The position numbers were made by a program, and so were the translations under genes. The notes beneath the pieces were generated by a model. The model did no database searches, was not told the origin of the DNA, and worked only from the letters and a program-made list of their open reading frames with translations. DNA of 64,000 nucleotides from Athripsodes cinereus (Eukaryota > Arthropoda > Insecta > Trichoptera > Leptoceridae): NCBI GenBank assembly GCA_947579605.1, contig OX388312.1, positions 22,653,313 through 22,717,312 on the forward strand, given 5' to 3'. Positions 35,931 through 59,366 of this stretch are shown in pieces; position 1 is the stretch's first letter; every line of letters starts with the position of its first letter.

Positions 35931-36150
35931 TCACTGTGTCGGTGTTTAGGTAGTAGAATTCCATATCGAAATAAATAAAACAAGTGTTTTATTCTACTAT
36001 TGATTTATTCGATGAGAGAGACGTCTTTCGTCTTATGAGGACATTGTCAATCGTCGACAATCGATTGACAATGTCCTCATAAGACGAAAGACGTCTCTCT
36101 CATCGAATAAATCAATAGTAGAATAAAACACTTGTTTTATTTATTTCGAT
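35931..36150 (-). mobile_element. Fold-back Penelope-like terminus, perfect 91-bp arms
   Basis: ATTATTTTAG flanks the insert at 35921-35930 and 36151-36160. Arms 35963-36053 and 36062-36152 are perfect reverse complements around an 8-bp spacer. The 32-bp head (35931-35962, TCACTGTGTCGGTGTTTAGG onward) is unpaired and is the antisense 3' end of family P1. The right arm holds a hammerhead-like core: GTC/GAC stem II (36073-36075, 36083-36085), GAA (36086-36088), palindromic stem III AGACGTCT (36089-36096) and cleavage base C (36097). The upstream CTGATGA is degenerate (TTGACAA). Confidence 0.85.
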
Positions 36151-36160
36151 ATTATTTTAG

Positions 36161-37084
36161 TAGTATGGTACTTAGATATAATAACGTAAAAATTCTGTAT
36201 CCAAGTTTTCGCAGATGCGTAGTCAGGAGGATGAAGATTTCTGCCTCCTCGATGAAATAGTAGCAAAAGTAAATAAAAATAATAACTAATGTAGGTACCT
36301 ACTTGTTAAATGTTTCCGTTTATCAATTTATTCAACTTTTTCCACATCCCATATTTTTTTCTCTTCGCAGACATTAATAAACATTTTTTCAGAACTAGAT
36401 TACATAGCTGTATTTTTATCATCAAATCCTAATAATGAGTTTCAAAGTATGAATTACTGTTTTTTATCCATATTTTGATATATATGTATGATAAACAATT
36501 ACTATGGAGTGTGTACGTACTCGTATGTAACTAGACGCCTACATAACTAATCAAGGAGAATGACATAACCGTCAAATACGATGACATTACCACCAACATA
36601 TTATTTACATTTATAGTTAGAGGCAGGTGCTATTATTTACAGGTAGAAATATAATAATAACTATAGGTAGGTAGGTACCTACTCAGTGTAATGACAATAG
36701 GCTCTAAGGTCAAACACTTACCTTCAAATAAGAAAAATCAGTTTTATTAAAATACACCACTTCTTCACACTGGCTTAGTATCCATAAATTTCAATGAATT
36801 ACAATATTTTCTCAGTGCTTTGGGTGTTAGGTTTGCCTAGACCTATGTCTGACTCAGAGATTAACCAAAAATGCCTGTAATAGGGCGCATCTTTTATCAA
36901 ATTCTTTTTCTATTATTTACCTTCTGTTTTATTATATGTATTTGATGTGCCTGACAGAATTTGAGATAGGAAATAGCTGTAGTAACGGAGACGAATAAGG
37001 AAGATTATTATTACAAGAACTCCACTCCTACCCCTTCACCTTCATTGTAAATCTTAAAATATTGTTTTTGTTTTATTCAGTATA
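36161..37084. other. No gene seen
   Basis: AT-rich spacer. GTAGGTAGGTACCTAC occurs near 36667 and GTAGGTACCTAC near 36291. The left edge retains the tail of the 78-bp unit (TAGTAGTATGGTACTT). Confidence 0.4.
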
Positions 37085-37190
37085 GATCAGCACCTGATGA
37101 TGCGAACTTGGAGTCTGCGAAACCGGTCGTGTGTTAGTCATACTCAATAGTAACATCAAACAATACTATAAAATATAAAAAACACTGTTT
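37085..37190 (+). mobile_element. Penelope-like 3' terminus with hammerhead-like motif
   Basis: CTGATGA (37094-37100), GAA (37119-37121), self-complementary ACCGGT (37122-37127) and C (37128) are in hammerhead order. Stem I can form between CAC (37091-37093) and GTG (37129-37131). Stem II is weak. The AT-rich 3' end abuts the inverted element at 37190. Confidence 0.65.
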
Positions 37191-37300
37191 TTTTGTTTCA
37201 CATTAATGTATACCAAAGTATACCACAATTACGCCTAGCGCTTTCACCAATACATTGGCATCATCAGGGCGGAGTATAAATTATATTATTAAAATGTTTT
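37191..37300 (-). mobile_element. Second Penelope-like terminus with hammerhead-like motif, tail to tail
   Basis: On the minus strand: CTGATGA (37267-37261), stem II GCCAAT-GT-ATTGGT, GAA (37245-37243), palindromic stem III AGCGCT (37242-37237) and cleavage base A (37236). Stem I pairs CGCC (minus strand, before CTGATGA) with GGCG (37235-37232). All conserved core positions are present. Confidence 0.72.
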
Positions 37301-37835
37301 TTTCACAATGTCAGCACTGAAACATTAAATTCAATTCACATTGAACAATAATAATAAATATTCATTTCATTTAATAATCATCACATTTTCGTCTATTCCG
37401 AATATGGAGAAAACTATAAGTGTGACTTTTTTTAAAATCATTTAATCATACGTTCTATACAGGAGCTTCGTTTTAAGAATCTGTTACTGTCTCAAGATAA
37501 CCGTGCGACTCTTAATTATTTTCGCTTTTATTTTTATTACCTTGTTTATTAACAGACGTAAGAGAAATGAAATGCAATATTAAGTAACATTATATTTATT
37601 ATGATGTAGTTTATTCTTCTGCAACTCTATTACAAAATAAAACTTTATCTCACAATTCCCAACTAGTTTCCATGTCATCGTTATCAAATATAATATTATC
37701 GCATTATAAATATGATGTAATAATAAATACTCACTTCGAATTATAGATTGTTATATTACAAATCCTGAACATTTCTTACTATTGAAATAAGAAGATGAAA
37801 AAAATACCTACATCAAACATAATGTAGGCATTCCT
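37301..37835. other. No feature seen
   Basis: AT-rich spacer. Confidence 0.35.
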
Positions 37836-37980
37836 CTTCCTCTGCTTCAGTTAGGACTATGTCCTGTGATTCTCGGAGCCTGCTCTTGGGAGGTGGATGC
37901 CCAGCTATCCCTCCATAGTTTAGGTGGTCTTCCTGGGGGTCTGTTTCCTGTCATGCGTTCGTCTGTTGTAGGTACTCAAG
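37836..37980 (-). mobile_element. LINE fragment, RT C-terminus
   Basis: The minus-strand translation gives TGNRPPGRPPKLWRDSW, then ASTSQEQAPRI. The GRP-(K/R)-WRD motif is the usual C-terminal stretch of non-LTR reverse transcriptases. Confidence 0.6.
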
Positions 37981-38533
37981 TACAATTAATAGACAGCTAG
38001 ATTGGCCAATGCAGAAGTATGAAGTTTTCGTTATATTCAATTTTATGAAGTAAAACCTACACAAAAATCCATTATAAATGTTTTCATCGTCATTCTGATA
38101 TAGGACAGAAACTGAAAAAAGCTCTCTTGAATGTTTTTATTCTTTATCTATCCTTTGATTAAGCAATATGACTAAATCATGATGATATTATTGGCAATCA
38201 TTTTTAATAAGTAGATGTACAAACATCGTGAATAACGCAACAATATCAAACACAATTATTTATAGAAGTTATAGCTTATCTTATAGTTAGTATAGAATTA
38301 CCTTACAAACAACCAATGAAAGTAGCGAATTGAATAATAACATTACTGTGTACCCACGTGAGTGTTTGTTTACATACATAATATAATAATATGATTATGA
38401 CTATTTCACTGCATTCTTGGTACATTATGCTTGCCTATATTGACTTATGTAATTGTCGTAACACATTGTGTAAAGCGCTACATAGTAGATACTGCACTAT
38501 TTGATATTATACAGATGAAGCTACTAACATTAT

Positions 38534-39142
38534 AATTGAATCGTGATCTGCAAAAACCACACATGTTACAAAATCAATGTTCTCCAGAAATTAAAAAAAA
38601 AACCTTTCTATTTTTTAACTTAAAGCAAATCGTTACGGGTTTTGTTATATTTTAAAATCCTCAATGGTCCTGGTTGCAACCATGTTTATAAGTTTTATTT
38701 TTATATAACATTTTATTTTTTATTCGTTTTTTTTAATATTAACAAGTGTGGTTTTTCTTGACCATCACTTACTTCAAAGAAACATCCAACAATATTTTGG
38801 ACATACAAGCTTATTATTGAAAACAAAGGTCCATAAATGGTAGCATGAAATGGTATTTTTGGCATTTACTGCATATTATGTCTATTTGAGGGTGGCCATA
38901 ACGTTTACACTGCACATCTACCATAGTTTCATACAATTACGTAATGTATTGCATAAGTATTGTTTTTACAATCACGCGAAAATCACATATTTATTTAAGG
39001 ATGATAATGTAAGGAACTATGGTAGATGTATGGCTTTTACAGAATAACATAGATAGATACCGGACATTAGGAACATTTTTTGTAATAACATGGAAAATGA
39101 AAAAATGCGACATGTGTGGTTTTTGCAGACCACGATTCAATT
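38534..39142. mobile_element. 609-bp element with 33-bp terminal inverted repeats
   Basis: The left end is AATTGAATCGTGATCTGCAA, continuing to ACATGT at 38566. The right end, 39110-39142, is its reverse complement with one mismatch. A nested inverted pair (CACATCTACCATAGTT at about 38914, AACTATGGTAGATGT at about 39014) lies inside. No transposase is recognisable, and the 65-codon frame 38850-39047 has no motif. Non-autonomous DNA transposon of unknown superfamily. Confidence 0.8.
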
Positions 39143-39393
39143 TTGTTTAAGCTAGTACGTAGACGTGAAGCGTTATAACATATATGTATATTTTTGTTAC
39201 TTGATGCAACTGCGTTATAATCATCACGTTAAATGATGCAGGAAAATAAGATGATAAAACATGTTTCATAAACGTAGAAAATAATTGTACCACCTATATC
39301 CATCTAATTTAAAAGAGGTTATCGATAACCTGTTATAAATTAATTCTTACACACGAGATATTCAGGATTTTATTTTTTGCCTTTGCGCTTCTA

Positions 39394-39620
39394 CACTGAG
39401 AAAAATACTAACGAAATTTCATAACGAATCATTGGTACGTACCTACTATCAGATTAGGACCAGAGATAGTACAAACGATTCATTAGTATTCATGATTTTA
39501 GGATTCATGATTTGTTTGCTAAGAGTTATTACAGATTCGTACTAATGAATCGTTTGTACTATCTGTGGTCCCAATCTGATAGTACGTACCAATGATTCGT
39601 TGTGAGTATTTTTCTCAGTG
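39394..39620. mobile_element. Fold-back MITE with TA target site
   Basis: CACTGAGAAAAATACT at the left and its complement at the right (AGTATTTTTCTCAGTG) are flanked by TA. The inner arms (ACGAATCATTGGTACGTAC; ACAAACGATTCATTAGTA) continue the pairing with small gaps, leaving a loop near 39500-39530. TA flanks and size suggest a Tc1/mariner-type MITE. Confidence 0.82.
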
Positions 39621-39704
39621 TACCGACATATACAAACTTCATAATACAAACAAAAGCTTACTATTATCACAAAGTTCAATACAATTATTGCTTTCTTTAA
39701 GGAT

Positions 39705-39840
39705 CATAATAATAATAATAAACTTTATTGTGCAAAATATTTAGACAAGAATAATAGGATAACAACATCGTATAGGTATATAATAATATATACAAATGAT
39801 TTTGCACAATGGGCGAGTTCATCGCACTTGATATCTTTCA
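39705..39840 (-). mobile_element. LINE tail, antisense
   Basis: AATAATAATAATAAACTTTA, then TTGTGCAAAA, is the complement of a TTTTGCACAATAAAGTTTAT-type 3' end with triplet tail. TTTTGCACAATGGGCGAGTT at 39800 continues the element. Confidence 0.5.
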
Positions 39841-40056
39841 ACTAACCCAAATCATCGTAGATAATATTTTTGATGAATAATAGATTACTAAACTTATCAA
39901 GTAGTCATACACACTTTGATACATACATCCTGATCTTTTATCATATACAATAGGTACATACTATACCCAGGTTTTGTAAAAATAAAAAAATTGAATTTAT
40001 TTTGCAATCAAAATCTGTGAACATTATAATATCTACAAAGTTCATATATTTCAAAT

Positions 40057-40736
40057 TATTGTGCTTATTATACTGTTAAATTATGTTGCAACCTATTTGA
40101 ATATAGATTATAAAAGTTTAGCTAACCATACAAAAGAAGTGATAATTTTCTTTAGGTAACTACAATGGAAATTTTACCACAAAAAATTAAATATATTTTT
40201 ACCACAGAAATGTAAATATTATTACCACAGAAATCGGTACCTACCAAGAATAACTAATCAATAATAGTCTATCTTTTGTTTTTACGACGATTGTTTTGAA
40301 CTTTGGTTTATGTTTAGACAAAACATACTTCATACATAGGTTAATAAATAAGCATAGGTACTTACTAATTGAATTATGTAAACTTCAATGAAAAATTATT
40401 GTGCTTATTATACTGTTAAATTATGTTGCAACCTATTTGAATATAGATTATAAAAGTTTAGCTAACCATACAAAAGAAGTGATCATTTTCTTTAGGTAAC
40501 TATAATGGAAATTTTACCACAAAAAAATAAATATATTTATACCACAGAAATGTAAATATTATTACCACAGAAATCGGTACCTTCCAAGAATAACTAATCA
40601 ATAATAGTCTATCTTTTGTTTTTACGACGATTGTTTTGAACTCTGGTTTAGGTTTAGACAAAATATACTTCATACATAGGTGAATAAATAAGCATAGGTA
40701 CTTACTAATTGAATTATGTAAACTTCAATGAAAAAT
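40057..40736. repeat. 340-bp tandem duplication
   Basis: The segment starting ATTGTGCTTATTATACTG at 40057 recurs 340 bases later at 40397 and runs to 40736 with few differences (for example GATAATTTTC/GATCATTTTC and TTTGGTTTATGT/TCTGGTTTAGGT). Two units only. Each contains three TTACCACA motifs. Confidence 0.93.
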
Positions 40737-41129
40737 TCAACTTGATTTGTGTTAAGTACCTACTTTCACTTAGCAAGTAAGACCTACTGTAATACTTTAT
40801 GCCAAAAGCATTATAAGTTAAGTTAACAAACTAAGAAAGTTGATCAAATAATAGATTTGAATCGCCCACTGAATTTAAAAATTAGTTGTCAAATGTTTAA
40901 CATAAATAATCATACGTGAAAATTAAACAGTGTTTAGTTTAATATTTTAAAACTCATATTAAAATGAATTTTCACAATTACTTTAAATTTAATAAAACTT
41001 TTTTGGATTTGAAATACTTTGAAACATATCTTATTCGATCCCAAAGAATAGGCAATTAATAAGACTTACTACCCGTACATGAATAAAAAAGTAAAGTAAT
41101 ATTTTGGATATATGTAGGAATATTTCTCA

Positions 41130-41240
41130 TAAACTCTGTTAGTTTTCGAGTGTTTTAACTTCTATTGGCACAGAGTGAACAGCTTGAATGTTTGATGCTT
41201 GCAGTTGGTCCGCTGACTATTCCACTTGTGGAAAATGCCT
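41130..41240 (+). repeat. Dispersed repeat family D, deleted copy
   Basis: TTTTCGAGTGTTTTAACTTC, GGCACAGAGTGAACAGCTTG, CAGTTGGTCCGCTGACTATT and CCACTTGTGG are in family order, but the middle 100 bp are missing. Confidence 0.65.
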
Positions 41241-41289
41241 TTTTAATAACTTTTATCAGACAGGTAATAAAGAAATTGATACCCTCTAT

Positions 41290-41590
41290 TCGATCTAATA
41301 TTTATTGAGCGTGGTCGTGAGAATGGTCTTGAATGGGCCATGTTTTGAGAATGTCGAGTGATAAAATGCTTAAAAAGGCACTCTGTACTTTTGTCCACAA
41401 GGGTTCCCACGGTCCGAACATCCCTCTTCCACAATACATCGTTCCTACCATTCCTACGACAACGGCATCATAATGCCAGAAATGTTGTGGGAAGAGATGA
41501 CTCAATTGGCACAAAGACGCTCAGATTGAAAGAGGTTGGTTACTGCCCTGTGCTCCCGAGAGGCTCGTTAAAGGGCGAGATAAATGAATG
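41290..41590 (+). mobile_element. LINE 3' fragment, same family as 1809-2285
   Basis: GGGCCATGTTTTGAGAATGT, CACAAGGGTTCCCACGGTCC, CACAATACATCGTTCC, AATGTTGTGGGAAGAG, CTCAATTGGCACAAAGACGC and CTGTGCTCCCGAGAGGCTCG follow the family order. The coding frames are shifted, so it is dead. Overlapping frames on both strands here are shadows. Confidence 0.75.
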
Positions 41591-42439
41591 AATGATATTC
41601 ATAAACATCTATAGATTATTCTAAATCACTCGCTTACGAGATGATGGCCTTCAGAGAAATTGAATAAAACAAAATAAAATATAGGTAGGTAGTAGATAAT
41701 ATTATTTTGCAATGTCAAACAGCGTTTGGTTTGAATATTTACGTTTATAAATTCATATTGTACCAACACAATTTTCATTGGCTCAGGTCCAAATATGGCA
41801 TTTATGCATATATCAATGCCCTGAAAATATTATTGAAGGTTATGGTACAAGTTTAGAAGGTAAACTAAATTTAAAATGTGATCAGTCATTCACACTATCG
41901 TCAAGAAGTAATATTAAATTACGTAATATATTTTAATTTAGCAAGCATTACTATTTATATCTTCAAATCGATAAATGTAGAATCGATCAAAGCTAGACGA
42001 GCAAAATACATTAAGCAGTAAATTATAATCTGAACCAATGCATTTTGTATGCGTCCACGATGCTATTTGAAACTGTTTTTACATAATAATTAATCGTGAT
42101 TTAACGAAACGTTTGTTTAAAAGAATGTTTGTTTAATCTGAGAATAATACATACAAAATTCCTTAATTTTTTATTTAGTAAGTAATGAGGTATAATTTAA
42201 ATATAACTTGATATAGAGTGATCAACAGTGCTGGAAGCTACACCACAAAACAAAAATAAAAAAAAGTCAGCAATAAAATTCCTTAGAATGTTTATTGAAT
42301 TGTTGCTATACCATTATTTCGTATGAGTTTATTAGGTACATAATAGATTGAGTAATAAAATAATTCAATTATGGTAAGTAAATTAATAATTAATAAAATA
42401 CTCGTTCAATCATTCATACTAGTAAGGCATTTGCCACAA

Positions 42440-42625
42440 ATGGGGTAGCCAGCGGACCAACTGCACGTAACGAACATGAAAGCTGTCCTTTCCGTGCTAA
42501 TAAAGATTAAGGCATTCAGGATGAGTGGTATAGCTCATCGCTGAACTGAAGTTGTTAAATGTCTTAAACGTGATGTTTTTCGAATATGTGCCTTTACAGG
42601 ACACTCGAAGGCCTAGAGAGATTCT
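42440..42625 (-). repeat. Dispersed repeat family D copy, minus strand
   Basis: The complement of the family is seen in order: CACAAATGGGGTAGCCAGCG, ACCAACTGCACGTAA, GAAAGCTGTCCTTTCC, GGCATTCAGGATGAGTGG, GCTCATCGCTGAACTGAAG, AAACGTGATG and AGGACACTCGAA. Confidence 0.82.
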
Positions 42626-42703
42626 GGTTAATTTCTACTATAGGCTATCCAACAGTATTCGGTTAGGAAATATATATTGATGATTATAGTTGTATTTATT
42701 TTA

Positions 42704-42943
42704 TTTATCTTTCACTGTACACTGTTACAAGATATCATTGAGCATCCAAAAAAATATGATTTAAGAGAGGGGTACACCGGTACAAGTTATATTTATATAA
42801 TGATCTAATATTCCTCTACATAGAAGAACTTCATGGCATAATTATGCATTTAAATAATATTGCAATCACTGGACAAGATACACCCCCTCGCCCCCATATG
42901 GTTTTTGTGATATCTTGTTACGGTATACAGCGAAAGATAATAA
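42704..42943. mobile_element. MITE with about 36-bp terminal inverted repeats
   Basis: TTATCTTTCACTGTACACTG and TTACAAGATATCA at the left (42705-42738) pair with the right end (GATATCTTGTTACGGTATAC and AGCGAAAGATAA, 42910-42941) with a few mismatches. The two overlapping frames at 42844-43044 are shadows of this structure. Confidence 0.78.
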
Positions 42944-43434
42944 CAATCAATACAACTTTGATCACCAATATATATTTTCGTAATGGATACTACTGGATAA
43001 CCTATAGTAGATATATTCCGATATTTTAAATATTTTTTATTCATACATTTTACGGCTAGTAAGTCTTTTTAATAGCCCTATGATGGAGCAATTATTTTAT
43101 AAATATTTAATATATTTATACCTTAGTAAGTATCTATGTAATGAATAACTTACTATGAGAAGCAGTATCGATCGAAGCAAGAAACATTACATATGAAGAA
43201 ACTCATATTCAATATGAATAAATAACAAGTTTTAAGAATACCTAATTATTTAAATATATCTTATAAGCCCACTGTCTACACCAGTCGTAGAATATTTTTA
43301 TTGATTGTACAAAAAAATAACACGAGTCGATATCAACGCGAAATTAATAGTGTCACAATTCAGATTTCGTTCAAATTTGATAATACAAGATACATACAAC
43401 TTCTCCCATTATTCTAGTTAGGTTGAGGGCCCAT

Positions 43435-43620
43435 TCAATACATAGACATACTAGACTTGCAGCGTGGTACATTTTTTCGAAATTTTTGTGTTCCGACATC
43501 GATGTCCTTCAAGCATTAGTAATGTATTGTCTTACAACCAACGTCAGTTGGGTGCAAAATTTGATGGGCCGCATGACCGATTTTTTTCTTTGAATTAGGT
43601 ACTGATCTAGTAGGTATTAT
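43435..43620 (+). repeat. Unclassified dispersed repeat, copy 1
   Basis: CATACTAGACTTGCAGCGTG, GTACATTTTTTCGAAATTTT, ACATCGATGTCCTTCAAGCA and CGCATGACCGATTTTTTTC, in that order, match the inverted sequence at 56930-57095 at roughly 80 percent. No frame, promoter box or terminal repeat explains it. Confidence 0.75.
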
Positions 43621-43690
43621 CTTTGATTCAATCTAGGAACTTCATCCAGAGATCCCTGTCTATTGCTGCTTCCAGGTCCTCTGTCCACTA
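43610..43690 (-). mobile_element. LINE fragment, antisense
   Basis: The minus-strand translation is WTEDLEAAIDRDLWMKFLD followed by a stop. It resembles the final residues of retroelement open reading frames. Short and tentative. Confidence 0.35.
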
Positions 43691-43754
43691 CAAACTAAAT
43701 ATTTCAACATACATAATAACAATGTATTGATCCTACTTTAAGAAGTATTTTTCA

Positions 43755-43897
43755 GATTAGGTAATTCGAGATTGATAATGAACTGATGAGTCAAAAGACG
43801 TCTCTCTTGTGATCAATAACTTATAGTAGAAAGGAACACTTGATTCAAATTACCTAATTATGGAATTCTACTAAGTGTGCACCGTCACAATTAATAT
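43755..43897 (+). mobile_element. Penelope-like family P1 copy, plus strand
   Basis: CTGATGA (43784-43790), GTC, AAA in place of GAA, then stem III AGACGTCT (43797-43804) and C, then ATTATGGAATTCTACTAAGT and GTGCACCGTCAC. The order matches the sense strand of the 35931 element. AATTACCTAAT also occurs inverted at both sides (43758 and 43851). Confidence 0.65.
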
Positions 43898-44479
43898 TTT
43901 TCAAATATCTAGTTGACGTTCAAATTGAAAATATTTTGAATTATTCTTAAAGATATAAATGGGAACCTAACAATTTCCATTCCTGTGCTGTTTCAGAATA
44001 AAATACAACTCATAAGACACTCTACATGATCTACATATAGTGTCCTTTGAATTCAATTAAATTAATAAAAATCATCTTCAATGAGGCAATCAGTAATCTT
44101 TCTCATTCTGAATCACTGTTGGCACAAGAATAATGTTATGCATAAATATGCATAATATTTATGCATCAAAGTCTACCATGTTATAAACAAAATTAATAAA
44201 CAAATGAAATCTATATAGGATATTCACCACTGCACGTGTTTTAGTTTATAGAGCTATAAATTTTATTATATTTAGAACCTAGCTTTTAATTTAAGCATAT
44301 TACCTACATGATGCAAAAACAGTACATAACAAAATGTGAGTAGGTACGTAATGCTAAGAAATTTGCATTTGCATGGTCGACCAATTTTCATACATATTTT
44401 TTTATATAAAAGGTAAATGTTTACCTTTAGCTAATTTAACTTGCGATTTTTTCTTGAATACATAATAAGTATTCATGTC

Positions 44480-44590
44480 CACAGTAGCCTGATGATGACA
44501 GTGAGAATTCTTGAAAACCGGTTCGTGACGAATAAAATCACATATTCAACGAATTCAAAATAAACTTCCGTCAAGTACCTACTGTTTGTT
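44480..44590 (+). mobile_element. Penelope-like terminus with hammerhead-like motif
   Basis: CTGATGA (44489-44495), GAA (44513-44515), self-complementary AACCGGTT (44516-44523), cleavage base C (44524). Stem I and stem II pairings are poor, so this copy is probably decayed. Confidence 0.55.
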
Positions 44591-44639
44591 ATCCACGCGA
44601 TAAAGAAAAGATGATGATTAGCTGTATACTAATAAATCC

Positions 44640-44692: not shown

Positions 44693-44764
44693 AGATTTAT
44701 CTTCAATGAATACACGACCACCTAAAGTGTTTTATCAGAACTGAAATAGGAATTCTTTAAAGAT

Positions 44765-48125: not shown

Positions 48126-48128
48126 TTT

Positions 48129-51100
48129 TTTAGTACTTTTATCCACGTAGGTACCTACCCATTTTTTTTTATTGAAATATGGCCGTGTGGGATGTCAAAC
48201 TTCAAGATTTTACAGTGGGAAAAGGATTTCAGTACTTTTATCCACATAGGTACCTACCCATTTTATTTATTGAAATATGGCCGTGGGGGATGTCAAACTT
48301 CAAGATTTTACAGTGGGAAAAGGATTTCGGTACTTTTATCTACGTAGGTACCTACCCATTTTTTTATTGGAATATGGCCGTGTGGGATGTCAAACTTCAA
48401 GATTTTACAGTGGGATTTCAGTACTTTTATCCACATAGGTACCTACCCATTTTTTTTATTGAAATATGGCCGTGGGGGATGTCAAACTTCAAGATTTTAC
48501 AGTGGGAAAAGGATTTTAGTACTTTTATCCACGAAGGTACCTACCCATTTTATTTATTGTAATATAGCCGTGTGGGATGTCAAACTTCAAGATTTTACAG
48601 TGGGAAAAGGATTTTAGTACTTTTATCCACGTAGGTACCTACCCATTTTATTTGTTGAAATATGGCCGTGTGGGATGTCAAACTTCAAGATTTTACAGTG
48701 GGAAAAGGATTTTAGTACTTTTATCCACGTAGGTACCTACCCATTCTTTTTATTGAAATATGGCCGTGTGGGATGTCAAACTTCAAAATTTTACAGTGGA
48801 AAGGGGATTTCAGTACTTTTATCCACGTAGGTACCTACCCATTTTTTTATTGAAATATGGCCGAGTGGGATGTCAAACTTCAAGATTTTACAGTGGGAAG
48901 AGGATTTTAGTACTTTTATCCACGTAGGTACCTTCCCATTTTATTTATTGAAAAATGGCCGTGTGGGATGTCAATCTTCAAGCTTTTACAAAGGGAAAAG
49001 GTTTTCAGTACTTTTATCCACGTAGGTACCTACCCATTTTTTTTATCGAAATATGGCCGTGTGGGATGTCAAACTTCAAGATTTTACAGTGGGAAAAGGA
49101 TTTTAGTACTTTTATCCACGTAGGTACCTACCCATTTTATTTATTGAAATATAGCCGTGTGGGATGTCAAACTTCAAGATTTTACAGTGGGAAAAGGATT
49201 TTAGTACTTTTATCCACGTAGGTACCTACCCATTTTTTTTTATTGAAATATGGCCGTGTGGGATGTCAAACTTCAAGATTTTACAGTGGGAAAAGGTTTT
49301 CAGTACTTTTGTCCACGTAGGTACCTACACATTTTTTTATTGAAATATGGCCGAGTGGGATGTCAAACTTCAAGATTTTACAGTGGGAAGAGGATTTTAC
49401 TACTTTTATCCACGTAGGTACCTACCTATTTTATTTATTGAAATATGGCCGTGTGGGATGTCAATCTTCAAGCTTTTACTGAGTTTAAAGGTTTTCAGTA
49501 CTTTTATCCGTGAAATATGGCCGTGTGGGATGTCAAACTTCAAGATTTTACAGTGGGATTTCAGTACTTTTATCCACATAGGTACCTACCCATTTTTTTT
49601 ATTGAAATATGGCCATGGGGGATGTCAAACTTCAAGATTTTACAGTGGGAAAAGGATTTCGGTACTTTTATCCACGTAGGTACCTACCCATTTTTTTATT
49701 GGAATATGGCCGTGTGGGATGTCAAACTTCAAGATTTTACAGTGGGAAAAGGATTTCGGTACTTTTATCCACGTAGGTACCTACCCATTTTATTTATTGA
49801 AATATGGCCGTGTGGGATGTCAAACTTCAAGATTTTACAGTGGGAAAAGGATTTTAGTACTTTTATCCACGTAGGTACCTACCCATTTTATTTGTTGAAA
49901 TATGGCCGTGTGGGATGTCAAACTTCAAGATTTACAGTGGGAAAAGGATTTTAGTACTTTTATCCACGTAGGTACCTACCCATTCTTTTTATTGAAATAT
50001 GGCCGTGTGGGATGTCAAACTTCAAAATTTTACAGTGGAAAGGGGATTTCAGTACTTTTATCCACGTAGGTACCTACCCATTTTTTTATTGAAATATGGC
50101 CGAGTGGGATGTCAAACTTCAAGATTTTACAGTGGGAAGAGGATTTTAGTACTTTTATCCACGTAGGTACCTTCCCATTTTATTTATTGAAAAATGGCCG
50201 TGTGGGATGTCAATATTCAAGCTTTTACAAAGGGAAAAGGTTTTCAGTACTTTTATCCACGTAGGTACCTACCCATTTTTTTATCGAAATATGGCCGTGT
50301 GGGATGTCAAACTTCAAGATTTTACAGTGGGAAAAGGATTTTAGTACTTTTATCCACGTAGGTACCTACCCATTTTATTTATTGAAATATAGCCGTGTGG
50401 GATGTCAAACTTCAAGATTTTACAGTGGGAAAAGGATTTCGGTACTTTTATCCACGTAGGTACCTACCCATTTTTTTATTTAAATATGGCCGAGTGGGAT
50501 GTCAAACTTCAAGATTTTACAGTGGGAAGAGGATTTTAGTACTTTTATCCACGTAGGTACCTACCCATTTTATTGAAATATGGCCGTGTGGGATGTCAAA
50601 CTTCAAGATTTTACAGTGGGAAAAGGATTTTAGTACTTTTATCCACGTAGGTACCTACCCATTTTATTGAAATATGGCCGTGTGGGATGTCAAACTTCAA
50701 GATTTTACAGTGGGAAAAGGATTTTAGTACTTTTATCCACGTAGGTACCTACCCATTTTTTTATCGAAATATGGCCGTGTGGGATGTCAAACTTCAAGAT
50801 TTTACAGTGGGAAAAGGATTTTAGTACTTTTATCCACGTAGGTACCTACCCATTTTTTTATCGAAATATGGCCGTGTGGGATGTCAAACTTCAAGATTTT
50901 ACAGTGGGAAAAGGTTTTCAGTACTTTTATCCACGTAGGTACCTACCCATTTTTTTATTGAAATATGGCCGTGTGGGATGTCAAGTTTCAATATTTTACA
51001 GTGGGAAAAGGATTTCAGTACTTTTATCCACGTAGGTACCTACCCATTTTATTTATTGAAATATGGCCGTGTGGGATGTCAAGTTTCAATATTTTACAGT

Positions 51101-51295
51101 GGGAAAAGGATTTTAGTACTTTTATCCACGTAGGTACCTACCCATTTTTTTTATTGAAATATGGCCGTGTGGGATGTCAAACTTCAAGATTTTACAGTGG
51201 GAAGAGGATTTTAGTACCTTTATCCACGTAGATACTTCCCATTTTTTTATTGAAATATGGCCGTGTGGGATGTCAAACTTCAAGATTTCAATACC
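48129..51295 (+). repeat. Large tandem array, unit about 97 bp, about 32-33 copies
   Basis: Each unit contains TAGTACTTTTATCCAC, the 12-bp palindrome GTAGGTACCTAC, CCATTTTTTTATTGAAATAT, GGCCGTGTGGGATGTCAAAC and TTCAAGATTTTACAGTGGGA with AAAGGATT. GTACCTACCC starts at 48151, 48250, 48348 and 48439, so periods vary (99, 98, 91) through T-run length and small deletions. Variant units recur about 1240 bp apart (TTTGTTGAAA at 48651 and 49891; CCATTCTTTT at 48741 and 49980), showing multi-unit duplication. Frame-open repeats such as AVWDVKLQDF appear in all frames and shift with unit length, so this is non-coding satellite. Confidence 0.95.
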
Positions 51296-51318
51296 CATTT
51301 TTTTTTAATTTACATAAA

Positions 51319-51645: not shown

Positions 51646-51774
51646 TATTGTTATAATTTTATATACTGTTAGTCTCACTAACATATATTCTATTATATGT
51701 TCTCTACTTTAATGTGACACTGTGTATATAGTTGATACAAAAATTATTGCTGCCTACATAAAATAACTTTTATT

Positions 51775-52343
51775 TATATATCGTTGCCGTGGATGTGAAG
51801 TGATCCAACCCACAAAACAGACATTCCGAGAAAAAGGGTGTTGAAGTTACGCTGTTACATCCGAAAATACTAATCTTACAATAACTAAGTTATTTTTGCA
51901 TGGATTTCGCTAAAAAATTTACACAATATTCCTGATCACATATTCCACTAATATAAATAACAAAATATTAAAGAATTTATATATTTTAGAAGTAAACGCG
52001 AATTTATCACTTGGGTTATTTCACCACTGTAGCTGAGAAAGATCCACCTGTAAAAAAAATGTTAGAAAGTTACGCGCTATGCGGCTAAGATCTTTTCACT
52101 TCTATAATTTAATTAAACTATTTGTTCCTATATGCGTTAGTGAAATGCTCTAACATACTTGAAATGATTGTAAAAACACTTAACATCTCTTCAAAATCTT
52201 CCAAAAATGCCCTTTAGGAATATCAAATCACTTATTTCTCTTCACCACTATGTTCTCCGTGGTTTTCTGAACAAAACTGCAAACTTAACCCATTTTTCAA
52301 AAAAGTGTGGCTTGGATCACCTCCACGGCAACGATATACACTA
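51775..52343. mobile_element. Element with about 40-bp terminal inverted repeats
   Basis: The left end TATATCGTTGCCGTGGATGT, then GTGATCCAACCCACA, pairs with the right end GTGTGGCTTGGATCACCTCC, then ACGGCAACGATATA, with a 6-base insertion and a few mismatches. It is 569 bp with no transposase. The frames at 52207-52404 and 52305-52634 are not convincing. Confidence 0.75.
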
Positions 52344-52359
52344 CTTACTGTTTTTTTTG

Positions 52360-52420
52360 TATATATTTCCCGTATTCCCGTGCAACGCCGGGTATTTAAG
52401 CTAGTACTATATATTTATAT
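52360..52420 (-). repeat. Short end of a common insect repeat
   Basis: CCCGTGCAACGCCGGGTATT, then TAAGCTAGTA, is the complement of an ACTAGCTTAAATACCCGGCG start, a commonly dispersed insect repeat edge related in style to the one at 18832. Confidence 0.5.
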
Positions 52421-52829
52421 TATTACACTTATACTGTCAAAGATTCTTCTTCTTTTAGCATTGCCATTTGTGTTGTCTCTTTTCCCGCCAATCTTACCTC
52501 TATGTTACAGTGATTTGGAACCTAGGGTGACAAAAAATAGGAATATACCACTGCTCACGAGAACCCTCGTCAAAACATTATTCTTGTCTCACATAACTCT
52601 TTATAGTTTAGTGTTGTTGATAAGCCCTTTTTGAATATGAACAACCAATATTCTGCATTTTTTATGCTTTTACTCTTACCGCTCATGAAAATAAATACCG
52701 ATATTTATACATACGTTTTATCTAGACCCGTGCCTTAAAATTAATGGAACTGGTTAGTATTAATTATTTTATTTTATTCACTTAATGTCAAAGAACCATG
52801 AAAATACTAGAATGTATAAATATTTTAAA
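52421..52829. other. No feature recognised
   Basis: The plus-strand frame 52305-52634 continues here as a leucine-rich chance frame. I see no conserved motif. Confidence 0.35.
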
Positions 52830-52842
52830 TAACGTTATCGTT

Positions 52843-53070
52843 AATTTTGTTTTCACTAAATGAGTAAAACTCCATTTTTAAATTAAAAAATTAATAAGTA
52901 AAAAATACTTAAGAGTTTTAAATTTCTTTATTTATCAGTTACACGTGTTTCGGGTTGCAAGCCCATATTCATACTGGAATGGTATGAATATGGGCTTGCA
53001 ACCCGAAACACGTGTAACTGATAAATAAAGAAATTTAAAACTCTTAAGTATTTTTTACTTATTAATTTTT
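52843..53070 (-). mobile_element. Fold-back Penelope-like terminus, perfect 92-bp arms
   Basis: TAACGTTATCGTT flanks the insert at 52830-52842 and 53071-53083 (13 bp). Arms 52883-52974 and 52982-53073 are perfect reverse complements with a 7-bp spacer. The unpaired head is 52843-52882. The right arm has stem II GGG/CCC (52992-52994, 53002-53004), GAA (53005-53007), palindromic stem III ACACGTGT (53008-53015) and cleavage base A (53016). The CTGATGA position reads ATGAATA. Sequence otherwise unrelated to the 35931 element. Confidence 0.85.
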
Positions 53071-53647
53071 TAACGTTATCGTTGACTAATAGGCTGAATA
53101 AATAACTTTTTTTATTTAATAAGAATATATTATTTTTTTATATCTTACGTATATAAACATTGTTGTCATATACTTACATCAATTTGTATGTAAATTATTT
53201 TCTTTTTTATATTTTATGATGTAGTTTTTTATTATATTTTTCACTGACCATTGGTTACAACATTTACAATCAAAACAAAGTAGGAATCATAAAAATATTA
53301 GTTATACAATTCATTGTAGAGAGGACGAGTTTATCACTAGAATGAGATGTCTTCCAAACAACCCGGTCATTAAACTAAAAAAAGAAGAAACATAGTTACA
53401 TATACATCAACAGAAATACTAGAAATAAAAATAAAACATAAACACACATTTAGACCATAAGCAAGCATTATAATGTATAAATAAACGTGTATAAAAAAAA
53501 ACAAATAAAAGTAATAAACGTACATGCAAACAATAATGTACTTAATGATTCATATAATAATAAAAAGAGCAGTATACTCGTATTATTATAATGCAGCAAG
53601 TACATGCATAAAGGAATGGAGTTTATGAGATACATAAATCCTCATTT

Positions 53648-53770
53648 TTTTTTTTTTTAAAAAGATATACCTATCTGGGTTTTGTTACAATTCTTTTTTT
53701 TAAAAGATATATCTGGGTTTTGTTATAAACCCAAATACAACCTTATACACCTTTCACAGTATACACCTTT
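53648..53770 (-). mobile_element. tRNA-derived SINE, truncated and partly duplicated
   Basis: GATATATCTGGGTTTTGTTA and TAAACCCAAATACAACCTTA match the SINE body at 28730. The leading part (TATCTGGGTTTTGTTA) appears twice, at about 53671 and 53706. The tRNA-like part is missing. Confidence 0.75.
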
Positions 53771-55004
53771 CAATAAGAGGAAATGACTTTGAATTGTTTA
53801 TCTAAAAGAATGAAAGGTTGTTGTCATCCTAATTTTCGAAGATAATTATTATTATAAGATGGAAGACAATAATTATCATTTGACATAAAAACGTACCTAC
53901 TCGTAATTTGATGATGTATGTAAAAATAAAAGCTCAAATAATTTCAAAATATAATTTTTAATAAGCACCTAGACACATCTTCAAATATTAGCGGTAATTA
54001 AGTCCCACAACTACAGTATCTCTAGGCGTGTAAATAATTTTATTTTATGAAAATATCCAAATAAAGATTCGTTTCATGTTGTGTTCCAGGTTTTGACATT
54101 CCTTACACCCCAATACTTCCTTGTGGCGTAACTATGCATTCCTCATCTGCACTCGTTATAACAAAACAATAGACACAATAAGTCATTAAAATAGTGTATA
54201 GTAATTACTTCCTAATAAATTTGGTATTAATTAAGTAGGAACTCGTACGTACGGAGTTATTCAGTTAATACAAGATGATGGGTAAGTAAGTACCTACTTG
54301 GATACTGAGTACTTAGGTGATTATATAATTTTAGTTCTAAGATAAATCACAACATATGATTCTAAAGGCATGTAGAATGTAGATATTAAATATAATATGT
54401 ATATTTTGACTACACCTTAGAACGTGATGCTCTAGCTAAGTAGGTACTTATTTAAAACAGTTCTAATACTATAGGAAATTTTATTGCAGTTGAATTTTAC
54501 TAGATATTAGTATTAGCAGAGTTGCTCCGGCGACGCCGAAGGGTGGTCGTGCGCTTAGATCAATAGAAATATTATTATCGATATAATGGATATTCAATAG
54601 TCGTATTGGAATATACAGAAATTATTTCAAAATTCAAATCTAATACGAAGTGTTAATTATTCTAATTTTTATTAAATTTGCTATTAATGATTGATGTGCA
54701 CGACAAAAATATCACAAAAAATGAGACGATGAAACAAAGTTTTATCGAGTGCATTTCTAAATAAAGACAAATTTCGTGTTTATGAATATTTTGTTGTTGT
54801 GAATTTTCCGCTGGCCGGTTGAAATTATACTATTTACATAAATTTAGTGAATACATTTAGAATAAGTTTTTAATCAAATGATTTTTTTATCGATTATTAA
54901 AACAAACATACACTTGTTTGTATTGTGACCAAGATAAATTGCATTATTGTTTATATTAAATGTAAGTACAAATATTTTATTATTAAAATTTTTGTGTCAT
55001 TTAA
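53771..55004. other. Spacer, one short repeat edge
   Basis: AT-rich. GAGTTGCTCCGGCGACGCCG near 54520 is GC-rich for this region and looks like the edge of a dispersed repeat. Nothing else is recognised. Confidence 0.35.
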
Positions 55005-55095
55005 CTTGAGGAGAGAACGACCTGCATATTTATTACGTGCAGTTAATCTGCTGGCTACCCCACTTGTAAGAAATACAGTGATGATATAGATAGGT
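55005..55095 (+). repeat. Dispersed repeat family D, 3' part
   Basis: GAGGAGAGAACGACCTGCAT, TTATTACGTGCAGTTAATCT and GCTGGCTACCCCACTTGTAA, then CAGTGATG. Confidence 0.75.
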
Positions 55096-55364
55096 TTATA
55101 TACAATTATTCTTGTGGTGACAATAATTTGATAATTTTTTTGAAGTCAGTAATCAGTGAGCCCTTACTATGTTTTATTTTTGTTATGTATAATTGTTTTA
55201 TTTTTCTAGTAATTGACTCATGTGTCCTGCTATATGAATAAAATATTTTTTAACAAAATGCCATAATTCAAAAACACAAAGGAGCTCTACTTTCTTTTGT
55301 GAATTTTTTACGTCCTGAAAAAAACGGCGATCGATAGTAATTTTCTAATTTCTATTCTTTCGGC

Positions 55365-55515
55365 TGTTAAATTTAAAAATAAAATCATAAAGTTTAACGA
55401 TGAGAACAAGCTACTAATCCTAAATGTATTAATTTTTGGAGTACAGAAAAGAAGCTCTGTGTATTTAGTACATGCAGTTGATTCACTGACTACTTTACGG
55501 GAGACGCCTTAATGA
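55365..55515 (+). repeat. Dispersed repeat family D, old copy
   Basis: AAAGTTTAACGATGAGAAC, CTAATCCTAAATG, TTTAGTACATGCAGTTGATT and CACTGACTACTTTACGGGAG follow the family order with many changes. Confidence 0.55.
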
Positions 55516-55654
55516 TCTAGATTCTAGATTGAAGTTAATTTGGCGACTTATTTTCAAAATGTTTTTGTTTTATGTAGTGATCTCGCTTCCTGTTTTTTTT
55601 AAACATTAGACATATCTGAAAAATAAGTATGATTTGGGGATCTTTAACGAAAAT

Positions 55655-55860
55655 TTTCGAGTGTCCTGTAGGTATAAGGCAAATGTTCAAAAAATAAAGA
55701 CTTTCTATACCTCAAATTCAGCAATTAGGTTTGCCACTCATCCTGAATGTCTTATTTTTTTGTTGACATAGAGAAGACGGCTTGCATATTTATTACATTC
55801 AGCTGGTCTGCTGGCTACCCCACTTGTGGGATATGCCGTGATGGTTTATATTAGTAGCTT
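55655..55860 (+). repeat. Dispersed repeat family D copy
   Basis: TTTTCGAGTGTCCTGTAGGT, AATTAGGTTTGCCACTCATC, CTGAATGTCTTATTTTTTTG, CAGCTGGTCTGCTGGCTACC and CACTTGTGGGATATGCCGTG, ending in ATATTAGTAG. The end is the closest single-copy match to the 78-bp array unit. Confidence 0.85.
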
Positions 55861-56925
55861 ATTTATTTATTATTGACATTTATTTATGTAAATAATAATA
55901 CAATAAAATATTATTAATTACGTATAATAACAAAATCCAAGAGTTCGTCACTCTAAGATTCAAAATGTTGTGTATTTTTCAAAATTCATTCAGACCATCA
56001 CGGCATTGACTGCATGCAATAAATAAGCAATTAAAAGTTTATGAGCCATTAAAAATTTACAAAAATGTGGGGTGGCATGTGGTTACTAAAATATATATTA
56101 CAAAGTATTTTTCAAAAATACGTTGGTCGACTAAATAATGGACGAAGTCTCCAGAAAAAAACACGTGTTAAACAAGAAAAATCGACGTGTTGGCTTGAAT
56201 AAATATAAGCAAAACACAGAGAAACCCAAAGATACGAAAGAATGAGCTTTTCTGATAATCCATTTTCTCTACATTTTCCTGGAAATGCGGTATTTGAGTC
56301 CAGTAAACAGATAAGTATGTAAATTATGTAGATACAAAGAAATCGTCCAAATAAAAACCCACCCATGGCCCACCCTCTGATTTTTATTCTATCATCTTAA
56401 ATTACATATGTATGTATGTGTTCACCAATATATTTTTTCACCTATATTTATAATCTTTTTTAGTTTATTTATTTATTTTATTCAATAATTTATAGGTAAT
56501 GTGTTTAGCTCTACCCATTTTATGAAAGATGCAGTGAATAGTTTGGAATCGATATACCTACATTATCGTAGAAACGTCAGTAAAATTTAGCCATAAAATA
56601 ATTCTACTTATAATAGTATGTACGATAACAATACACAATATAATATTATTATTATTGACTCTCCTTGGCACCATTCAACGTTCATAGTGATGATTAGAGT
56701 GCATGTAAATAAAATATCCATCTATTTTCTTTACAGTTACATATATGTGCATAGAATATATCCACAACATTTCCTACATGTGAGATAATAACGATAGTGG
56801 TCTCACCGCTTACTTGTTACAAACGAATGTGCGTAAAATCATGCAAGCGGTATAAGAAATCAACAGATACAGAATTAGTGGCGTGTCTTTAAAGATACTA
56901 AATGGTCAATTTCTCACAAAGATAT
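55861..56925. other. Spacer, possible LINE tail at left
   Basis: TTATTTATTTATTATTGACA at 55859 resembles an antisense retroelement tail. The rest is featureless. The minus-strand frame 56112-56366 has no motif. Confidence 0.35.
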
Positions 56926-56929
56926 ATTA

Positions 56930-57100
56930 GATCAGTAATTCAAAGAAAAAATCGGTCATGCAGCCGATCAAATTTTGCATTCAGTTTTAAAATGACGTTG
57001 GTTGACAGTACATTGCTAATGCTTGAAGGTCATCGATGTTGGAACACATAAATTCCGAAAAAATGTACCGCGTTGCAAGTTTAGTATGCAGACCATATCC
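56930..57100 (-). repeat. Unclassified dispersed repeat, copy 2
   Basis: Inverted relative to 43435-43620: AAAATCGGTCATGCAGCCGA, GCTTGAAGGTCATCGATGTT, GAAAAAATGTACCGCGTTGC and AAGTTTAGTATGC correspond in reverse order. Confidence 0.75.
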
Positions 57101-57737
57101 TACATGTGAGAAAACCTAAATTTGGTTCACTGAATTATTATTATTACGAACATTGAAGGGAGACTCACCTCACACCTGAATATTGTAAGAGTCGTAGACT
57201 CCTATTTATCCGTACATTCAAACCAAAATTGTCCTCACTACTTATTTATCTTCTGTGTTCCTTTTTGGAGAGACAATATAAGTAAATTTATGAAAAATAA
57301 AAGGATACAATAGTTGAGTACAATCTTATTTTTTATGCTACCTATCGCTGAATTCAAAATGTTTATTGTCAAATGTGTGAATTTTACGAAATTTTTCTGC
57401 ATGTGAGAAAACCAAAGTACCAAAGTCCTGTCCATAGTATAAAAAAATAATAAAATCAAGAATAGTGACACATCTCAGCGCTGATTTAAATGAATATTGC
57501 TCTTTATGTGGAAGTTTTTGTGAGCATTCGCCGAACAACACTCAATTTTTTTTTTGATATTTAGAACCTTCACAGTGAATTTATTATTCGCAAGCTGACT
57601 TTCAAGAGCTTTCGCCCTCATCGAAAGACTATGGTGAAGAATTGGTCATCCACTCATCCACACTCGAATTGTTGCAGGAAAATGCTAAACTTCTATTCTC
57701 TTTCGGTAATTCATGAGTTTAAATTAAACGTATTTTA
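57101..57737. other. No gene seen
   Basis: AT-rich spacer. The minus-strand frames 57238-57541 have no motif. TCCTACATGTGAGAAAACC (57100) echoes TTCCTACATGTGAGATAA at 56770, perhaps a further trace of an unlisted repeat. Confidence 0.35.
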
Positions 57738-57962
57738 ATAACTCTAAAGTTTGTACATTCACAGAGTGAAAATTCATTATGATGATATTATACTTTAAAT
57801 AACACACAGTTTACTTTTCACTAAGATTTATTCTAACCTCGAGCGCTTTCGTCAATGTTAATGAATTGACATTTTCAAGAGAACTGAACTAGTTCTCTTG
57901 AAAATGTCAATTCATTAACATTGACGAAAGCGCTCGAGGTTAGAATAAATCTTAGTGAAAAG
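57738..57962 (-). mobile_element. Fold-back Penelope-like terminus, perfect 77-bp arms
   Basis: TAAACGTATTTTA flanks the insert at 57725-57737 and 57963-57975 (13 bp). Arms 57809-57885 and 57891-57967 are perfect reverse complements around a 5-bp spacer. The unpaired head is 57738-57808. The right arm has stem II GTCAAT/ATTGAC (57906-57911, 57920-57925), GAA (57926-57928), palindromic stem III AGCGCT (57929-57934) and C (57935). The CTGATGA position reads TTGAAAA. Confidence 0.85.
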
Positions 57963-57984
57963 TAAACGTATTTTATTTATTTCC

Positions 57985-58150
57985 GTGGAGCACCCGGCAA
58001 AGAATTGGTCTCCCACTCTTTTCCGTAAGTTTTCGAGTGTCAAAAATAAGGATTATTTCAGCAATGAAGTTTGCCACCCATCCTGAAGGCCTTTATAGGT
58101 ATATTGCTGTCGGAGAAGACGACTTGCATGTTTGTTTCACGCGGTTGGTA
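57985..58150 (+). repeat. Dispersed repeat family D copy
   Basis: GGAGCACCCGGCAAAGAATT, GGTCTCCCACTC, GTTTTCGAGTGTC, AGCAATGAAGTTTGCCACCC, ATCCTGAAGGCC and GACGACTTGCATGTTTG. This copy shows the 5' part of the family best. Confidence 0.8.
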
Positions 58151-58529
58151 AAGTAATAGTATTTTGTTCATAGTTTTTATAGATATTTTGAATGAATCAA
58201 AATATGTCTGTGGTTTATTTATATGTTTAGAATTTAGTTGTTTCATCAAAATTTAATGTTAAATAATATATTATTATCTACCTAATTAGTTTGTTTACTT
58301 CCTAAGAAGTGCAATGAAACGTGAACGTCCGAGAATCACGTTGCACGACCACGTGGACCGGAATCTCATGGACGAATCTGTAATACTTATTCTTCTTGAT
58401 TATTAACAGAATAAGATTGTGCTGATGCAAGAACCTGAATGGTGATGTGCAAAAATAAAAAAAATAATTACAAGTGTGACAAACCAACTTAACATAATCA
58501 AATAAATTTTTAACGCAAGGTCATTAAAA

Positions 58530-59366
58530 CTATCCACTGTTTCGGTGTTTAGGTAATAGAATTCCATAATGAGATCCAAATATAAATGTTTTTTAGAGAC
58601 GGCTTTTACATCACAATGTCAATTGAGATTAGGGTTGCCACCTTTTTTTTCTGCAGATAAAGTACATTGGTCATTATAGGCAAGAAAAAAAAAGTACGTA
58701 GTGTCAAAATAAAGTACAATTTATTTTTCATTATTTTTATTTAAAAAACATGTTTCTATGCTTTTTGCAGTTTGTATCAAATAAATATCTCTACTGAACA
58801 AGTGCACAGCATCTTAACAGTCTATATTTAAATTTAAGTAAATAAGTATTTTTTTAAAACATTTTTTCGGTGTAACACATTCACTATCTAGTTGATCTGT
58901 TTCACTATTGAAATTACGTTTCTAGGTTTATGTAGAGCATGGGTGGCCAACCTTTTCAGCAGCCGGGCCATATTTCAGAAATGAGATTTTCTACAGGGCC
59001 ATGCAACAATTTACTCCATATACGGAAAAATTTACAATTTTACTTCACCTTAAAAACATCAGAGATGTGGCGCTGGCGACTGGCGACGTCGATTCAGCAC
59101 CAATTGATAAATTTCGTTTAACGAAAAAATACTTACAACTAAACTTTCCAAAATCCCAAAGATATCAAATCATGCGAAATAAAGTATTTTCGCGTACTTT
59201 ATTTTTCTCATAAAGTATAAAGTACGATTACCTGAAATAACGTACAATACTTTATAATAAAGTACGGGTGGCAACCCTAATTGAGATTGACAATATCCTT
59301 ATAAAATGAAAGACGTCTCTCTCAATAAAACATATAGTGGGAAAAAACGTTTATTTTTTTAATTTC
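58530..59366 (-). mobile_element. Fold-back Penelope-like P1 element split by a hAT insertion
   Basis: GTCATTAAAA flanks it at 58520-58529 and 59367-59376 (10 bp). The head CACTGTTTCGGTGTTTAGG (58534) is family P1. An imperfect fold-back follows: AGAGACG and AATGTCAATT on the left pair with ATTGACAAT and GACGTCTCT on the right. GAA plus stem III AGACGTCT lies at 59308-59318. Without the nested hAT and its duplicated 8 bp, the insert would be about 179 bp. It is more decayed than the other three fold-backs. Confidence 0.8.
58630..59279. mobile_element. Non-autonomous hAT element nested in the fold-back element
   Basis: ATTGAGAT is duplicated at 58622-58629 and 59280-59287. The ends TAGGGTTGCCACC and GGTGGCAACCCTA are perfect 13-bp inverted repeats. 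It is 650 bp with no transposase. The interior has AAAGTAC motifs in both orientations near the ends (subterminal repeats). The frames 58939-59213 have no recognisable domain. Confidence 0.92.

Follow-up and report, generated by a model that had tools for sequence, protein, structure and literature searches.

The 64,000-nucleotide stretch of the Athripsodes cinereus genome analysed here (GCA_947579605.1, contig OX388312.1, positions 22,653,313 to 22,717,312 of the forward strand; called the window below and numbered from its first letter) contains four short fold-back inserts, I1 to I4, each of which we propose to be an mRNA 5' leader of a Penelope-like element (PLE), inserted twice, head to head, by two-sided priming. 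We give this reading, which is drawn from sequence comparison, a probability of roughly 0.6. It is carried by a hammerhead-like ribozyme core beside the turn of the fold-back, by a long-range stem at a common distance past the predicted ribozyme cut, and by the likeness of both to the leader RNA of PAc, the biochemically active Penelope of Anolis carolinensis (Frangieh et al., 2024; PMC11167929). The evidence base is eight copies in this one 64-kb window and that one published RNA. PLE integration is still largely an open question; a single read of a leader-only unit takes in the turn and both ends, and genome assemblies could thus suffice to test a model with two start sites and two-sided priming. 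Judging from the ends of the inserts, the poorly understood Penelope class may begin RNA copying on either side of a broken chromosome.

Anatomy and families of the fold-back inserts

The four inserts described in an initial annotation of the window are real, and are placed as follows (minus is the sense strand).

35932..36148, minus strand: insert I1, 217 bp; arms 35963-36053 and 36062-36152, spacer 36054-36061
35919..35931: I1 target-site duplication, left copy, 13 bp, ATATTATTTTAGT
36149..36161: I1 target-site duplication, right copy, 13 bp; initial 4 nt shared with the arm (microhomology)
52843..53070, minus strand: insert I2, 228 bp; arms 52883-52974 and 52982-53073; 13-bp duplications 52830-52842 and 53071-53083
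57738..57962, minus strand: insert I3, 225 bp; arms 57809-57885 and 57891-57967; 13-bp duplications 57725-57737 and 57963-57975
58530..59366, minus strand: insert I4, an old I1-family copy, 179 bp without its nested element; 10-bp duplications 58520-58529 and 59367-59376
58630..59279: hAT-like non-autonomous element nested in I4, 650 bp, TAGGG...CCCTA ends, 8-bp duplication ATTGAGAT

The inverted arms of I1, I2 and I3 are perfect over 91, 92 and 77 nt and enclose spacers of 8, 7 and 5 nt, exactly as first described. Direct repeats of 13, 13, 13 and 10 bp surround I1 to I4, so that the lengths given earlier for the last three (13, 13 and 10 bp) stand and that of the first is corrected from 10 to 13 bp (35919-35931/36149-36161). 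The arms overlap the duplications by 4 nt in I1, 3 nt in I2 and 5 nt in I3. Insert sizes are near-uniform (217, 228, 225 and 179 bp, from three families inside 64 kb); the last of these figures, which upholds the earlier estimate, is reached by subtracting the nested 650-bp element and one copy of its 8-bp duplication. The arms of I4 have decayed, and the evidence for its fold-back is chiefly that its halves match I1 in opposite orientations (79% over 87 bp and 82% over 62 bp); when half is compared with half, prominent matches are limited to pieces of 17 and 28 bp.

Further copies emerged when the units were compared with the window by BLAST.

43755..43894, plus strand: V5, fifth I1-family unit; 9-bp duplications TATTTTTCA at 43746-43754 and 43895-43903
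29889..29944, minus strand: V6, I1-family tail and about 20 nt
20430..20540, minus strand: V7, two tandem I1-family tails, the leading one degenerate
about 40908..40975, plus strand: V8, kin of the I3 stem and tail; 9-bp stem GTGAAAATT/AATTTTCAC; ATG at 40964

By these matches the I1 family comprises I1, I4 (79% to I1), V5 (73%), V6 (93%) and V7 (91%), and V8 is a relative of I3 (76%, E 5e-5). I2 and I3 are two separate families, distinct from that of I1 and I4, which agrees with the earlier statement that at least three of the arm sequences differ. A tail is found at one end only in I1, I2, I3, I4 and V5. V5 retains an inverted-arm remnant of 11 bp (43756-43766 pairing with 43848-43858), most of its fold-back having been deleted, and with this remnant and its 9-bp duplication it is best regarded as a decayed fold-back. 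The fold-back is visible in five of the eight copies, intact in I1 to I3 and decayed in I4 and V5. The end points of V6, V7 and V8 were chosen by us rather than set by duplications, and the ends of V6 and V7 are not counted as evidence. Tandem arrangement is seen, by inspection, in V7 alone, whose two tails are reminiscent of tandem PLE arrays. A candidate duplication of V7 at 20991 was rejected, since a likely host exon would then lie within the insert.

Ribozyme-like core, shared stem and tail

The following motifs and stems were located in the three intact inserts.

36008..36058, minus strand: I1 hammerhead-like motif, UUGACAA-U-GUC(7)GAC-GAA-AGACGUCU-C^
52936..52978, minus strand: I2 hammerhead-like motif, CAGU-AUGAAUA-U-GGG(7)CCC-GAA-ACACGUGU-A^ACUG
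57838..57882, minus strand: I3 hammerhead-like motif, CUC-UUGAAAA-U-GUCAAU(8)AUUGAC-GAA-AGCGCU-C^GAG
35951..35999, minus strand: I1 long-range stem, TAGTAGAAT/ATTCTACTA, from 18 nt past the predicted cut
52865..52920, minus strand: I2 long-range stem, TAAAACTC/GAGTTTTA, from 19 nt past the predicted cut
57765..57822, minus strand: I3 long-range stem, AGTGAAAA/TTTTCACT, from 18 nt past the predicted cut

On the strand that ends in the tail, I1, I2 and I3 follow one core plan: NUGANNA, an extra U, a stem II of 3 or 6 bp, GAA, a self-complementary stem III, and C or A. The one-sided head of the four inserts, and their GAA and self-complementary stem III followed by C, A, C and C, had been noticed in the initial annotation and are found again here. 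In hammerhead numbering, positions 3 and 8 pair as U-A in I1, A-U in I2 and U-A in I3; the cores (UUGACAA, AUGAAUA and UUGAAAA, each with the extra U) depart from the CUGANGA...GAA consensus and keep the 3-8 pair. The core descriptor, which like the ribozyme-plus-stem descriptor below was drawn up after I1 to I3 had been seen, matches the I1, I2 and I3 loci only (on both strands, by way of the palindrome), where 0.03 (with the 3-8 pair) to 0.09 matches are expected per simulated 64 kb. Natural hammerheads with U3-A8 are known, and activity in vitro has been reported for 3-8 pairs that covary (PMC3088659). The presence of hammerheads in PLEs has been reported by several papers. The U-A and A-U pairs of the inserts are in this respect natural tests of how much the hammerhead core tolerates. 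For these putative ribozymes, a hammerhead-like core of the PLE type with palindromic stem III is supported, as are the retro-insertion with target duplication and the Penelope affinity that were suggested at the outset.

The ribozyme had also been placed at the turn of the fold-back. The motif does adjoin the turn, but the predicted cut falls about 35-45 nt within the arm, and because the 5' part of the ribozyme is present in the insert, the template had not been cut by it. The predicted cuts are at 36018/36017 in I1, 52940/52939 in I2 and 57841/57840 in I3. Strong scores of microRNA families of Rfam at the inserts are read as the palindrome fitting hairpin models. The CUGAUGA of V5 was considered as a canonical core and rejected, since its counterpart in the alignment is loop II of I1 and no GAA follows it.

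The long-range stem of I1, I2 and I3 is 8-9 bp long and encloses a loop of 31-42 nt; that of V5, TAGTAGAA/TTCTACTA (43824-43831/43866-43873), begins 19 nt past the predicted cut. Between families both paired sides change at some stem positions, by inspection. The observed stem length was reached anywhere in the 3' part by 16 (I1), 759 (I2), 139 (I3) and 68 (V5) of 2000 shuffles, and a stem of at least 8 bp arose at the common place, which was picked from the same units, in 7 (I1), 136 (I2) and 29 (I3) of 4000. A wider descriptor (GAA, palindrome, H and a stem of at least 7 bp 16-22 nt on) finds 6 loci in the window against 1.68 expected per simulated 64 kb; when stem II and the NTGANNA core are added, the 3 loci found are I1, I2 and I3 (0.04 expected per simulated 64 kb). 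This stem, 18-20 nt past the ribozyme cut, is a candidate structure for protein binding or start selection.

The tail carries an ATG that sits at or just 5' of the 3' strand of the stem.

35932..35966, minus strand: I1 tail, ATG at 35964, frame open to the insert end, MEFYYLNTDTV
52875, minus strand: I2 tail ATG, MEFYSFSENKI, open to the duplication
57777, minus strand: I3 tail ATG, MNFHSVNVQTLEL, open to the duplication
minus strand: I4 tail peptide, MEFYYLNTETVD, open to the duplication

The tail frame of V5 meets a stop after MEFY, and those of V6, V7 and V8 are open across the pieces that we delimited. In the five copies with duplications the tail ends at +33 (I1), +33 (I2), +40 (I3), +38 (I4) and +35 (V5) from the tail ATG; V6 (+33) and V7 (+32) are consistent with this, both of their ends being analyst-set. 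The tail peptides (MEFY, MEFY, MNFH) were tried as a PLE N-terminus and set aside as suggestive, partly forced by the stem, and lacking a counterpart among database proteins.

Comparison with Penelope and a proposed route of insertion

In the leader RNA printed in the Methods of PMC11167929, our scan found CUGAGGA, the U of the AUG, stem II, GAA, the palindrome ACGU and C, with a predicted cut 26 nt past the start codon, in agreement with that paper. Its stem CAUGGCC/GGCCAUG, 20-70 nt past the cut, is the sole stem of at least 6 bp with a loop of at least 20 nt in the scanned range, and 18 of 4000 shuffles had a stem of at least 7 bp at that place. Reverse transcription (RT) of PAc is reported to start 82-89 nt past the cut; the inserts end at 86 (I1), 97 (I2), 103 (I3) and 90 nt (V5). 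PAc cuts and extends both target strands, with RT starting at two adjacent sites that bound the tail, and unprocessed RNA seems to be the dominant substrate in vitro; a new PLE copy is described as arising through further steps that await experimental validation (PMC11167929). PAc and the inserts are thus alike in a hammerhead containing the extra U of an AUG, a palindromic stem III and a stem 18-20 nt past the cut, and also in having AT-rich targets, a tail bounded by two start sites and, for the inserts, ends near the RT start. They differ in that the PAc core has C3-G8 where the inserts have U3-A8 or A3-U8, and in that the open reading frame (ORF) of PAc begins inside the hammerhead and continues, whereas the corresponding frame of I1, I2 and I3 stops after 3, 12 and 4 codons; the inserts have a second ATG near the tail, and the window holds no ORF-bearing copy. 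The long stem is without description in the text of PMC11167929 available to us, which mentions an AC-rich stem-loop at the RT start. Because the PAc leader has the same plan and its RT start is close to the ends of the inserts, the inserts are most likely PLE mRNA leaders, matching the 5' leader and ORF-start region rather than the retroelement 3' end as which they were initially annotated.

Penelope of Adineta vaga has an inverted, shorter pseudo-long terminal repeat (pLTR), a one-sided tail, 8-10-bp duplications and palindromic junctions (Arkhipova et al., 2013; PMC3846280). The inserts share with it, as described there, the head-to-head pLTR, the shorter inverted copy, the tail on one side (31 bp in Adineta) and the junction palindromes; the Adineta descriptions of an inverted pLTR concern copies that bear an ORF, whereas here there is the leader only. 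The word hammerhead is absent from the main text of that paper. Inverted, tailed and palindromic Penelope copies are therefore already known, and what is added here is leader-only units, a common stem and a swapped core pair. A literature search returned no work titled on leader-only fold-back units, from which we do not claim that they are absent from print. Small PLE-linked hammerhead variants reportedly cleave as dimers, going by the title of Lunse et al. 2017, and the palindromic stem III of the inserts would fit such cleavage.

The two copies within each of I1, I2 and I3 differ in extent. One runs from just 5' of the hammerhead-like motif through the end of the tail; the second, inverted copy has nearly the same 5' start and stops earlier, within the loop of the common stem. 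The tailless end lies 51-57 nt past the cut in I1 and I2, about 54 nt in V5 (by inspection) and 27-32 nt in I3, inside the stem loop in each. Although their targets differ, I1 and I4 have tailless ends whose positions, judged by eye, agree to about 1 nt, and that of V5 is close by. A tailless end inside the stem loop is accounted for if each end is a separate RT start, and plain snap-back makes no such prediction.

According to the mechanism that we propose, the PLE protein would cut both target strands, and each target 3' end would prime reverse transcription of a leader RNA. An outer start would give the tail, and an inner start within the stem-loop would give the tailless end, homologous to the target over 3-5 nt. 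The two cDNAs, each having run off its RNA at the 5' end, would then be joined head to head, and filling in of the staggered target cut would leave duplications around the whole insert. A single-leader transcript would offer only about 130-150 nt 5' of the start sites, giving short, near-uniform and probably dead copies; a full copy would require a tandem transcript. We put forward more tentatively, as a possibility somewhat short of even, that PLEs in general integrate symmetrically, both ends priming at two set sites that flank the conserved leader stem and the cDNAs meeting at the RNA 5' end, in which case the units would be footprints that record the RNA 5' end within a few bases.

The foremost alternative is the snap-back step suggested in the initial annotation, by which one target-primed PLE leader cDNA reaches the RNA 5' end, folds via the spacer loop and copies itself back, breaking off before the tail and being joined through microhomology. 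The perfect arms with loop-sized spacers of 5-8 nt in three of three young copies and the 3-5-nt microhomology at the tailless end speak for it, and self-priming was proposed for the Adineta Penelope palindromes (PMC3846280). Such a step should leave an inverted arm that equals the first strand in length, yet the observed arm ends before the tail, and the step accounts neither for the near-constant stop in the first family (I1, I4 and V5) and the stop in the stem loop of I1, I2 and I3, nor for the extension by PAc of both target strands from two starts; we therefore hold it to be unlikely, at somewhat under one chance in four. The near-uniform sizes (217, 228, 225 and 179 bp) of four copies from three families in 64 kb would also suit a self-propagating non-autonomous retroelement class, short interspersed element (SINE)- or retrozyme-like, in which it is the fold-back units themselves that are copied. 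Animal retrozymes are likewise small non-coding units with type I hammerheads, and have duplications longer than 4 bp (Cervera and de la Pena, 2020; PMC7229834), but they are direct tandem repeats with canonical cores, whereas the inserts are inverted and non-canonical, with neither direct tandem units, a multimer array nor a canonical type I core. Since I1-family copies are 73-93% like I1, as though from changing sources, and nothing is kept 5' of the presumed RNA start, this alternative is quite improbable. What the inserts do show (a PLE-type hammerhead motif, a one-sided tail near the RT start, a shorter inverted copy and variable duplications) is expected of PLE leaders and pLTRs, and of the two outcomes left open at first, a distinct non-autonomous class is not needed and a by-product of Penelope reverse transcription is the more likely.

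Long inverted repeats with flanking duplications would also suit fold-back or miniature inverted-repeat transposable elements (MITEs) mobilised by a transposase. The duplications vary (9, 10 and 13 bp) where such DNA elements have a fixed length, the ends are asymmetric with a one-sided tail where theirs are symmetric, and the anatomy is that of a Penelope-like RNA, which makes this origin very improbable indeed. Perfect palindromes can originate in libraries, and an assembly or library artefact could produce the arms; with duplications that lie beyond the palindromes, a tail at one end only, and a nested insertion that an old copy of this plan (I4) received later, it is scarcely credible.

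Several observations weigh against two-sided insertion of PLE leaders. The tailless end of I3, at 27-32 nt, differs from the 51-57 nt of I1 and I2, the tail ends of I2 and I3 lie 8-14 nt past the PAc RT-start range, and the identical perfect arms suit snap-back at least equally well. Stem I has 4 bp in I2 and only 2-3 contiguous pairs, by eye, in I1 and I3, that of I1 being weak with 2 pairs, and the I2 long-range stem is weak taken alone, since 759 of 2000 shuffles match its length. The covariance scan called for at the start gave no match of the Rfam hammerhead models in the window at E<=5; among the three units scanned singly, I1 had a best score of 13.4 bits (E 3.9) and I2 and V5 had none. 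No fold-back and no convincing duplication were found for V6, V7 and V8; copies without a fold-back had been named as a refutation of the shared architecture, but as these also lack a duplication they are perhaps fragments. Protein searches add to this side. No database protein had three 5-residue words in common with the tail peptides, and among the 196 PLE-type proteins listed (from 120 of 7972 PLE-motif matches and 120 of 3008 Papilio PLE matches, many of them truncated) none starts with M[EN]F[YH], the nearest being one MIFH. No PLE ORF was found in the window by tblastn of these 196 proteins (best E 0.03); as leader-only copies, the units need not carry an ORF with telomerase-like RT and GIY-YIG endonuclease. 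Viral, bacterial and phage records searched for PLE DNA gave nothing useful, and the plus strand of a PLE-bearing contig from a bacterial bin (L001) is without such a leader.

The I1 insertion site and other features of the window

I1 lies in the final repeat of a 78-bp tandem array, and further repeats of the array act as paralogous empty sites for it; none was found for the other inserts.

35469..35924: 78-bp tandem array hosting I1, five further units of which align across the insertion point

The joined flanks of I1 align across the insertion point to 5 other array units at 90-93% identity with 1-6 gap positions, an alignment that reaches just 12 bp past the junction, where the array stops. 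Five bp present in both copies of the I1 duplication are missing from most array units, and because both copies carry them, these extra 5 bp probably predate the insertion.

Other features of the window are as follows.

3320-3520: palindrome centred close to a tRNA box-B-like GGTTCAAGTCC; no tRNA is predicted in the window by ARAGORN
4400-4850: imperfect palindrome whose inner arms, 118 nt long and 93% complementary, seemingly extend outwards; perhaps a miniature hairpin transposon
14626-15066 and 24483-25217: remnants matching DDE_Tnp_1_7 (PF13843) and RVT_1 (PF00078)
19535-19825: ABC-transporter-like stretch (PF19055); a possible host exon without Pfam match follows at 20663-20980, and V7 lies between them
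40053-40737: tandem duplication of 340 bp, 97% matches
48128-51288: long array of a repeat of about 97 bp, partly open as NMAVWDVKLQDFTVGKGF

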